A stretch of DNA of 64,000 nt, from NCBI RefSeq assembly GCF_947501425.1, contig NZ_CANMVN010000004.1:1-64000 (forward strand). The letters are read 5' to 3'. Numbering within the stretch: position 1 is the first letter of the stretch; every line of letters starts with the position of its first letter. Below, piece after piece: positions 36,140-38,007 of this stretch. The notes below the pieces were generated by a model, which did not search any database, was not told the origin of the DNA, and saw only the letters and a program-made list of their open reading frames with translations. The position numbers were made by a program, and so were the translations under genes. This DNA is from an uncultured Psychroserpens sp. (GTDB lineage Bacteria > Bacteroidota > Bacteroidia > Flavobacteriales > Flavobacteriaceae).

Positions 36140-36553
36140 TTAAGAACGATTATACAAATAACTTTGCAATATTATAGTAGCACTTATCTCATCAACCAAG
36201 GCCTTGTTTTTTCGTTGCTTTTTGTTGAGTCCGCTATCAATCATTGTTTGAAAAGCCATTTTAGATGTGAAACGTTCATCTACACGATGGATTGGGATTT
36301 CAGGAAACGCTTTAGCCAATGTCTTTAAAAATTTTGAGATTGAAGCTTCGCTTTCAGAGGCTTCATTATTCATTTGCTTTGGTTCACCTACAACAAATAA
36401 TTCAACTTGCTCCTCGGAAGTATATTGTTTCAAAAAGGCAACCAACTCTTTTGTAGCCAAAGTAGTTAAGCCAGATGCAATAATCTGTAATTCATCTGTA
36501 ACAGCTATTCCTGTTCGAACAGTTCCGTAGTCTAAAGCCAATAATCTTGCCAT
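36140..36553 (-). CDS. ruvX: Holliday junction resolvase RuvX/YqgF (ribonuclease H fold)
   Basis: A 137-residue nuclease-fold protein, needed for pre-16S rRNA processing in other bacteria and named for resolvase activity. Motifs are ARLLALDYGTVRTGIAVTDELQIIASGL (first catalytic Asp), VGEPKQMN, RVDERFTSKMA and KALVDEISATIILQSYL (last Asp). The gene starts the ruvX-def-DUF5606-mazG run. The -7 box lies only four bases before its ATG, so its mRNA is likely leaderless. Confidence 0.95.
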   Translation of the reverse strand: MARLLALDYGTVRTGIAVTDELQIIASGLTTLATKELVAFLKQYTSEEQVELFVVGEPKQMNNEASESEASISKFLKTLAKAFPEIPIHRVDERFTSKMAFQTMIDSGLNKKQRKNKALVDEISATIILQSYLYNRS

Positions 36554-36557
36554 TTTA

Positions 36558-36587
36558 CAAAGGTAATCTTATATTCTTGTTAATCAA
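36558..36587 (-). promoter_or_regulatory. Promoter of ruvX with minimal leader
   Basis: On the minus strand, TTG (36585-36587) and TACCTTTG (36558-36565) are 19 bases apart. Only four bases (TAAA) separate the box from ATG, the same distance as in rlmH. Confidence 0.7.
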
Positions 36588-36597
36588 TCTTAATGCC

Positions 36598-36733
36598 ATA
36601 AAAAAACTCTTCTTTGGAAACCAAAGAAGAGTTCAAAATAATCAACTATTAATTAAAATCCATGATACTATTCACCCTCTACCTTAAACAGCTCATGTAC
36701 TATTAAGACACATGAATTTCTAATAAGTCACAT
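36598..36733 (-). ncRNA. Hairpin unit A (candidate small RNA or operator unit)
   Basis: A perfect 13-base-pair stem (36605-36617 with 36621-36633, core CTCTTCTTTGG) has a three-base loop and is followed on the minus strand by T residues. Then 69 bases away stands a 31-base block (36703-36733) with GACACA and GTCACA starting 20 bases apart. Between them is CTATTAATTAAAA, also found in unit C. The unit has the shape of a short RNA with a terminator, but no promoter match is seen. Confidence 0.45.
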
Positions 36734-36820
36734 CGATTTAAAAAAATCTTTCTCATTTAAAAAAGGTTTAGAGTATCTATAAATTATGTAAGGCGTTTAG
36801 AAAGGATTATCAGTAATAAT

Positions 36821-36955
36821 ATTATAAAATAAAAACCTTTCCTGGGGCGAAGAAAGGTTTTTGGTATTGCTATTATTTAAAAGGGTATATAGGGCTTTCG
36901 CTATTATCAACTCATAACCAATTATTTAGACACCTCTTTTTTAAATAGGTCACAT
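36821..36955 (-). ncRNA. Hairpin unit B (candidate small RNA or operator unit)
   Basis: The stem AAAAACCTTTC/GAAAGGTTTTT (36831-36841 with 36852-36862) has a GC-rich ten-base loop. T runs flank it on both strands. The 31-base block stands at 36925-36955, 62 bases away, with GACACC and GTCACA 20 bases apart. The intervening CTATTATTTAAAA parallels units A and C. Confidence 0.45.
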
Positions 36956-36960
36956 CTCAT

Positions 36961-37111
36961 TTTTTGAGAAAGAAAACTCTCCTAAGGGAGAAGGAGAGTT
37001 TTCACAAAAATTAGCTATTAATTATTAAATAGACTGATATTAGTTTAGGGAAATACCTGCCTAATAATAATTCACATTAATTAAGACACAACACTTTTTA
37101 AATGGTCACAT
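36961..37111 (-). ncRNA. Hairpin unit C (candidate small RNA or operator unit)
   Basis: The stem GAAAACTCTCC/GGAGAGTTTTC (36972-36982 with 36993-37003) is followed on the minus strand by a T-rich run. The 31-base block lies at 37081-37111, 77 bases away, with GACACA and GTCACA 20 bases apart and TTTTTAAATG between. The block ends 50 bases upstream of the dapD -7 box, so it could instead be an activator site for dapD. Confidence 0.45.
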
Positions 37112-37161: not shown

Positions 37162-37169
37162 TATCTTTG
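37162..37169 (+). promoter_or_regulatory. -7 box of dapD
   Basis: TATCTTTG matches TAnnTTTG exactly, 22 bases before the ATG at 37192. Its place inside the longer frame that starts at 37102 argues against that earlier start. Confidence 0.65.
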
Positions 37170-37191: not shown

Positions 37192-38007
37192 ATGAAACAA
37201 TTACAACAGAATATAGAAAACGCTTGGAACGATCGCTCATTATTAACTGATCAGGTCACCATTGATAGCATAAGAAGTGTCATCGATTTATTAGACGAAG
37301 GAACATTAAGAGTTGCAGAACCAACAAACAATGGCTGGCAGGTCAATGAATGGGTAAAAAAAGCTGTAGTACTTTATTTTCCAATACAAAAAATGGAAAC
37401 TCTAGAGGCTGGCATTTTTGAATATCACGATAAAATTCCTTTAAAACGAGATTATCAAAAAAGAGGTATTCGCGTGGTACCAAATGCTGTAGCTCGTCAT
37501 GGTGCTTATATTTCTCCTGGTACTATTTTAATGCCAAGTTATGTAAATATTGGTGCCTATGTAGATGAGGGAACAATGGTAGATACTTGGGCAACTGTGG
37601 GTAGTTGCGCTCAAATTGGTAAGAATGTACACTTATCTGGTGGTGTTGGTATCGGAGGTGTTCTAGAGCCATTACAAGCAGCACCTGTAATTATAGAGGA
37701 TGGCGCTTTTATTGGATCTCGTTGCATTGTAGTTGAAGGAGTACGAGTTGAAAAAGAAGCTGTTCTGGGAGCCAATGTGGTATTGACAATGAGTACCAAA
37801 ATTATTGATGTTACTGGTGATGCACCTGTTGAGATGAAAGGTGTTGTTCCAGAACGCTCTGTAGTGATACCTGGTAGTTATACTAAACAATTTTCTGCAG
37901 GAACATATAATGTCCCTTGTGCTTTGATCATCGGAAAACGTAAAGAGAGTACTAATAAGAAAACCTCTCTAAATGATGCGTTACGTGAATATGATGTAGC
38001 AGTTTAA
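37192..38007 (+). CDS. dapD: Tetrahydrodipicolinate N-succinyltransferase
   Basis: A 271-residue enzyme of lysine and cell-wall synthesis. It transfers succinyl from succinyl-CoA to 2,3,4,5-tetrahydropyridine-2,6-dicarboxylate. The left-handed beta-helix hexapeptide repeats run from GTILMPSYVNIGAYVDEGTMVDTWATVGSCAQIG to PERSVVIPG, and the N-terminal helical domain includes EAWN-like ENAWNDRSLL. The ATG at 37192 gives the usual MKQLQQNIENAW start and follows a promoter box. The GT9 gene starts 45 bases after it in the same direction. Confidence 0.96.
   Translation: MKQLQQNIENAWNDRSLLTDQVTIDSIRSVIDLLDEGTLRVAEPTNNGWQVNEWVKKAVVLYFPIQKMETLEAGIFEYHDKIPLKRDYQKRGIRVVPNAVARHGAYISPGTILMPSYVNIGAYVDEGTMVDTWATVGSCAQIGKNVHLSGGVGIGGVLEPLQAAPVIIEDGAFIGSRCIVVEGVRVEKEAVLGANVVLTMSTKIIDVTGDAPVEMKGVVPERSVVIPGSYTKQFSAGTYNVPCALIIGKRKESTNKKTSLNDALREYDVAV

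Follow-up and report, generated by a model that had tools for sequence, protein, structure and literature searches.

A tandem array of putative small-RNA genes with an ECF-type promoter motif between ruvX and dapD in Psychroserpens

The intergenic stretch between ruvX and dapD in an uncultured Psychroserpens species carries three similar hairpin-bearing units, and raises the question of whether such a repeated arrangement constitutes a set of genes for short RNAs or a set of sites at which a regulator of the neighboring genes binds. Both possibilities had been put forward in a first-pass annotation of the window, the whole 64,000-nucleotide stretch of contig NZ_CANMVN010000004.1 considered here. 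The evidence presented below makes it highly probable that the array consists of three sigma-driven small-RNA genes, each with its own ECF promoter and its own terminator.

Layout and conservation of the array

The three units are arranged head to tail on the minus strand, all reading towards ruvX, and are named A (dapD side), B (middle) and C (ruvX side). Each is composed of a TGTGAC-N15-GTGTC block and a further approximately 85-115 nt, the last part of which is a hairpin with a T run. The features that had first drawn attention to the locus were all recovered: positions 36598-37111 contain three hairpins, stretches of the CTATTA(A/T)TTA type and T runs favoring the minus strand, and GACAC(A/C) and GTCACA start 20 bases apart in every unit (36707/36727, 36929/36949 and 37085/37105). 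The hairpins had been assigned stems of 13, 11 and 11 pairs; the hairpins are present, while their predicted stems are slightly longer.

In unit A, an exact motif site at 37085..37110 (minus strand), backed by a profile over 51 unit copies, is the putative -35/-10 promoter of an ECF sigma factor and precedes a putative small RNA at 36971..37078 (minus strand), the start of which is placed by inference about 7 nt past the -10 box. This RNA is predicted to form a long 5' stem with a UUUCCCUAAAC loop, followed by an intrinsic terminator at 36972..37003 (minus strand) recognized by its predicted fold and minus-strand T run. Unit B has an exact motif site at 36929..36954 (minus strand) and a putative small RNA at 36831..36922 (minus strand), within which alignment and folding reveal a GCCCUAUAUACCCUUUU stretch and a terminator at approximately 36831-36862. 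Unit C, with its exact motif site at 36707..36732 (minus strand), would give rise to a small RNA at 36600..36700 (minus strand) comprising a 5' hairpin (approximately 36661-36697) with the loop AAGGUAGAGGGU, a linker, and a terminator (approximately 36604-36634). With starts placed in this manner, the median RNA lengths are 107, 93.5 and 103 nt for A, B and C, respectively, in a set in which the shortest A (L051) and the shortest C (L041) are trimmed sequences. Every unit has its own promoter motif and an intrinsic terminator ahead of any gene, as a small-RNA gene does.

Both flanking genes have housekeeping-type promoter boxes outside the array. For ruvX (36140..36553, minus strand; Pfam RuvX), the box TACCTTTG lies at 36558..36565 (minus strand), and the last terminator, that of unit C, lies about 50 nt upstream of the gene. 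For dapD (37192..38007, plus strand), an open frame whose name is that given in the first-pass annotation and which shows 81-96% identity among relatives, the box TATCTTTG lies at 37162..37169 (plus strand). A TAnnTTT(G/A) box is found near ruvX in 20/20 stretches that reach this gene, and a box matching that of dapD in 20/20 stretches that reach dapD.

DNA similarity to the array region was detected in 20 of 37 genomes, the one under study included. These make up 20 of 22 Psychroserpens genomes; the 15 genomes belonging to other genera gave no match. The units are thus conserved in close relatives, as the short-RNA proposal demanded. A pattern scan gave 18 records, 6 of them unrelated and probably chance matches. 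Within the genus sample, which comprises 23 genomes after the addition of one more, 20 carry the array, which in G015 is divided between two contigs; it is decayed in G016, in which unit C alone keeps its promoter, and absent from G003 and G021. The number of unit copies per genome ranges from 2 to 4, some of them without an exact promoter. The dapD-ruvX intergenic stretch of G003 is short and holds no unit. That of G021 (L100), also free of units, contains CTTCCGTCTTCAGTCTT-like simple repeats together with reiterated blocks, more than 1 kb in all.

Conservation extends to the predicted RNA structure of two of the three units. MFE z-scores are -5.85 for unit A, -1.41 for unit B and -4.30 for unit C. 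In the stem closing the loop of unit A, 6 of 7 pairs are changed on both sides among 19 sequences, and the UCCCUAA loop is found in 16 of the 19 rows. In unit C, 97.4% of the cells of the 5' hairpin pair and five pairs are changed on both sides, with compensatory changes in both helices; the covariation score was reached by 0 of 500 shuffles, and all 20 sequences have UAGAGGGU unchanged in the loop. The consensus structure of unit B consists of the terminator only (five pairs changed on both sides), and no consensus 5' stem was found in its body by alignment and folding. The suggestion that structure is under selection consequently holds for A and C, where the predicted structure is conserved with covariation, and fails for the body of B. 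Exposed loops are C-rich in A and G-rich in C, and in the alignments the B motif is variable while the C loop is constant. Conservation across the genus, together with a promoter motif and a terminator in every unit, bears out the earlier proposal of a minus-strand family of probable short RNAs ending in terminators. As had been supposed, no named family fits: the Rfam covariance models gave no match at gathering in the whole 64-kb window, the best match in the array region (E 0.4) lay below the gathering score, and membership in LhrC or any other Rfam family was therefore rejected.

The promoter motif, its sigma factor and the motif-bearing genes

A scan for the 20-base-spaced motif had been recommended. 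GTGAC-N15-GTGTC occurs 13 times in the 3.7-Mb genome, compared to once for the reversed pattern, and 3 of the 13 sites fall within approximately 400 bases in the array; because of this excess and this clustering, the array motif is more than chance. The description of the block as a direct repeat did not survive. In 51 unit copies, chosen by GTGAC-N15-GTGTC or GGGTC such that the boxes themselves are fixed by selection, 98% have a T just ahead of the first box (GTGAC) and 55% have one ahead of the second; TTA comes after the second box, and the spacer is A-rich. Boxes with such unequal flanks resemble a -35/-10 pair rather than two equivalent half-sites, and two unequal boxes held at rigid spacing and common to one regulon are characteristic of an ECF promoter. 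The 20-base "repeat" is best read as the probable -35/-10 promoter of one ECF sigma factor, a reading based on the unequal halves, a site before a sigma gene, the co-occurrence of motif and sigma, and the absence or decay of the array where the sigma is missing.

The sigma gene in question, which encodes sigma-70 region 2 and 4 domains and has one motif copy upstream, is located on a different contig from the array (G000:C3) and is followed by a 58-aa ORF and then by an MscS-like channel gene. An ortholog with 81-100% identity is present in 20 of the 23 genus genomes, namely those in which the array is found; in G021, the best sigma matches reach just 31-33% identity. The motif was counted 237 times in the 23 genomes (control, 20), specifically 230 times in the 20 genomes with the sigma (control, 17) and 7 times in the three without it (control, 3). 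A tree built from just two genes, dapD and ruvX, puts G003 with G021 at one point inside the genus and G016 at another; the three outgroups cluster next to G013 in it. Since genomes lacking the sigma stand at two places in this tree, its topology suggests that array and sigma were lost jointly at least twice.

The 58-aa ORF (L060/L068), for which there is no Pfam match, follows the sigma gene in 47/47 close ECF loci. It is a candidate regulator of the sigma factor, in a position comparable to that of CfrX.

A scan of 397 Flavobacteriaceae genomes for both sigma and motif extends the association beyond the genus. Using score bands, including the 250-bit line, that were set after the scores were known, 60 genomes have an ECF match of at least 250 bits, and 60/60 of these have at least 3 motif sites, for 513 sites versus 44 in the control (means per genome of 8.55 and 0.73). 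Lower bands yield 47 sites versus 8 (225-250 bits, 10 genomes), 146 versus 51 (200-225 bits, 39 genomes) and 62 versus 34 (below 200 bits, 19 genomes), and the 269 genomes in which no ECF match reached 1e-45 yield 198 versus 280 (means of 0.74 and 1.04). Motif abundance across the 397 genomes follows sigma presence, as that of an ECF promoter should; counting against the linkage, 17 of the 269 genomes without an ECF match nonetheless have at least 3 motif sites. Position provides a further line of evidence: the exact motif lies at most 200 bp upstream of the sigma gene in 41 of the 47 best-scoring close orthologs, compared to 0 of 10 more distant ECFs. In these 41 the spacing is exactly 15, and the remainder include one N14 and one N16. 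Together, co-occurrence and position point to this sigma factor as the one that would read the motif.

G082 and G303, which belong to one genus, have no ECF match at E<=1e-45 and carry 9 and 15 sites; a divergent sigma factor may perhaps read these.

Genes downstream of the motif in the genome under study include the sigma operon and genes encoding an OmpA-domain protein, DUF3078, DUF2853 and a PAS histidine kinase, among others. In four other genomes, such genes encode MscL, a major intrinsic protein (aquaporin family), M48 peptidases and LysM (a BON domain in the LysM protein scoring below the curated cut-off), as well as DUF937, DUF4197 and DUF2807; Pfam was run on 19 proteins, the remaining family names being assigned by resemblance. 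The 40 sites sampled from these four genomes comprise 3 in coding sequence, 2 that are small-RNA-like according to a simple terminator finder, and 35 others, including 3 for which no ORF was found in the stretch. The sample leaves aside the 3 array sites among the 15 of G008; sites of G301, G211 and G370 are those among the matches listed, with the sigma's own site excluded in G211 and G370. Because mechanosensitive channels and an aquaporin are in the motif gene set, an osmotic or membrane-tension signal is plausible, and the regulon suggests a response to osmotic or envelope stress in which turgor or membrane tension may be what is sensed.

In the genome under study, site L066, which lies inside a coding sequence, was rejected as a regulon promoter. 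In both L066 and L231, the motif match in coding sequence and the M48-like gene after it are about 550 bp apart, and the match may be either a coding coincidence or a distant promoter; in G211 and G370, a motif site is found 78-82 bp before an M48-like gene.

Proposed mode of action, rival readings and known systems

From the motif, its linkage to the sigma factor, the terminators, the conserved structure, and the absence or decay of the array in genomes without the sigma, we infer that the units are transcribed in dependence on this sigma under a stress signal and act on targets by base pairing. Envelope stress, probably felt as turgor or membrane tension, would activate the sigma factor, the gene for which carries the same motif upstream of itself. 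The active sigma would then direct production of RNAs of approximately 85-115 nt from several genes at once, each transcribed towards ruvX and stopping at the intrinsic terminator of its own unit. These RNAs may act in trans, their exposed loops (C-rich in A and G-rich in C) pairing over short stretches with the targets, with less synthesis of envelope proteins as the likely outcome. Taken alone, base-pairing regulation of envelope mRNAs has a chance slightly better than even. A target search confined to near-perfect complements of the C loop (up to 3 mismatches) gave 2 places besides the array versus 7 for the reversed control, and hence no enrichment.

Several other readings of the locus have to be weighed against sigma-driven small-RNA genes. 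A LytTR or two-component response regulator binding the 20-base-spaced repeat to control dapD or ruvX would account for what is superficially a direct repeat two helical turns apart. The halves differ in their conserved flanks, however, and the second has no conserved leading base, such that the 51 unit copies display no true direct repeat of equal half-sites, and a LytTR site was rejected. In addition, single motif copies stand before other genes and before the ECF sigma gene, motif number tracks the sigma, a terminator follows each array copy ahead of any gene, and dapD and ruvX possess TAnnTTTG-type boxes of their own; the block behaves as an ECF promoter, and this part of the first-pass annotation is very improbable. 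The orientation of all units towards ruvX, with the last terminator about 50 nt from the gene, is what would be expected if the units acted in cis, as sigma-dependent leaders tuning ruvX by terminator read-through or attenuation. Against such action stand the TAnnTTTG box of ruvX located after the last terminator, the presence of three serial terminators, which would block rather than tune, the unit A of G015, which adjoins dapD on a stretch that lacks ruvX, and the array of G149, which lies elsewhere in a stretch with no match to ruvX or dapD. A cis role is, on balance, quite unlikely.

It is similarly doubtful that the small RNAs pair with one another, the CCCU stretches of A and B with the AGGGU loop of C, so that one sponges the other. 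The complementarity of CCCU to AGGG, both located in conserved portions of the units, speaks for it, but the predicted duplexes are no better than shuffled ones (mean z of -0.02 for 18 A-C pairs and -0.54 for 12 B-C pairs), and the B motif varies where the C loop does not. As for the units encoding very short peptides instead of acting as RNAs, a check of the C units found in 15 of 20 a mini-ORF, in frame from ATG to TAG, that covers the loop; it is missing from the other 5, and covariation and an invariant loop indicate RNA function. A coding role is most improbable.

Viewed as sigma-driven small-RNA genes, the units invite comparison to the enterobacterial RybB and MicA, Sigma-E-driven small RNAs that form the repressing arm of the envelope-stress regulon. 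These are single-copy, scattered genes, dependent upon Hfq, with other sequences as far as the Rfam scan tells.

The comparisons that follow draw on parts of the papers cited. Within the Flavobacteriaceae, Flavobacterium psychrophilum has a putative regulatory RNA, Rfp11, which is conserved in other species and listed under the ECF-type promoter SM6, as well as Rfp18, a conserved structured small RNA (PMC9723704). Given Rfp11, a single small RNA under an ECF-type promoter is already known in this family and is not new (PMC9723704). By description, Rfp11 and SM6 resemble the array in pairing a small RNA with an ECF-type promoter in Flavobacteriaceae; SM6 has a CGT box in its -10 region and is associated with T9SS genes, whereas the array motif has GTGTC as its final box and is found at channel and envelope genes (PMC9723704). 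No tandem array is described in the promoter (part 1) and small-RNA sections of that paper (PMC9723704).

Outside the Bacteroidota, the LhrC1-5 RNAs of Listeria monocytogenes are multicopy, induced by envelope stress, and equipped with C-rich loop motifs and intrinsic terminators (PMC4132741). The array shares with them its multiple copies, C-rich exposed loops and intrinsic terminators, as well as, by inference, induction by stress; it differs in that LhrC requires the two-component system LisRK, in place of an ECF sigma, and in the G-rich loop of unit C (PMC4132741). The streptococcal csRNAs, several related RNAs under the response regulator CiaR, were found by regulator site plus terminator and are sometimes in tandem (PMC8186281). 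They too are related small RNAs under one stress regulator, but the array block differs from the CiaR repeat TTTAAG-N5-TTTAAG, and membership among them was rejected (PMC8186281). The linkage at the sigma locus is similar to that of SigX with cmaX-cfrX-cmpX in Pseudomonas aeruginosa, in which an ECF sigma, a small ORF and an MscS-type channel are connected to envelope stress with possible autoregulation; gene order differs, and the portion of that source considered here mentions no small-RNA array (PMC7641640). In Bacteroides thetaiotaomicron, a link between a small RNA and an ECF/anti-sigma pair has been suggested as possible (PMC10861873).

No description of such an ECF-driven small-RNA array, of the GTGTC motif, or of its sigma and regulon was found in the literature searched, subscription papers and preprints lying outside it. 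If true, the present reading would go well past the single precedent of Rfp11: it would give the Bacteroidota a small-RNA array under an ECF sigma factor for which promoter, sigma gene and regulon are defined and which some genomes have lost naturally. It would also raise the question of how small RNAs regulate where there are no Shine-Dalgarno sites, flavobacteria being without these sequences (PMC9723704), and that of how small-RNA families grow by tandem duplication.

Units in other genera

The recommended covariance-model search was run with unit C. At E<=0.01, its model found matches in 19 of the 397 genomes of the family, 3 of which belong to the genus. In nine genomes from eight other genera the match lies between dapD and ruvX, and 9/9 of these have a sigma match of at least 250 bits (that of G045 with one in-frame stop). 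The other seven matches lie outside dapD-ruvX, and six of these have a promoter; L118 has none and was dismissed as a probable chance match. By eye, GAGGG is located in a hairpin-like loop in units of G177, G042, G066, G373, G193, G121 and G133. An even chance is given to the broader proposition that the ECF sigma of many Flavobacteriaceae repeatedly builds head-to-tail arrays of 2 to about 10 small-RNA units, each with its own promoter and terminator, as a fast-evolving post-transcriptional arm of the osmotic/envelope-stress response in Bacteroidota. Unit bodies would diverge from genus to genus, with promoter and terminator retained and the GAGGG loop type kept at the dapD-ruvX site.

The longest such arrangement observed, in G149 (L264, G149:C1:2106500-2111500), contains approximately 10 tandem promoter-terminator units, two of them nearly identical in body. 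This array adjoins a gene that is DnaJ-like by eye, and the sigma match in this genome is weaker (216 bits).

The location between dapD and ruvX is not universal, as a motif site was found there in 2 of 30 ECF-positive genomes from other genera (a unit in L167, and a site before a small ORF in L187) and in 0 of 29 ECF-negative genomes. Both sets were hand-picked, the ECF-positive one without genera already known for dapD-ruvX units, except G133. The expectation that every genome with the sigma would have an array at this site was therefore wrong. Where the array is missing, an ORF of one kind, 92-115 aa in length and with a signal-peptide-like start, takes its place in 8 of 10 ECF-positive stretches and in 1 of 2 ECF-negative ones (L168, L169, L174, L177, L181, L187, L191, L193 and L215, the last from a genome without a sigma match). 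L191 has two copies of this ORF, and in L187 the sigma motif precedes it.
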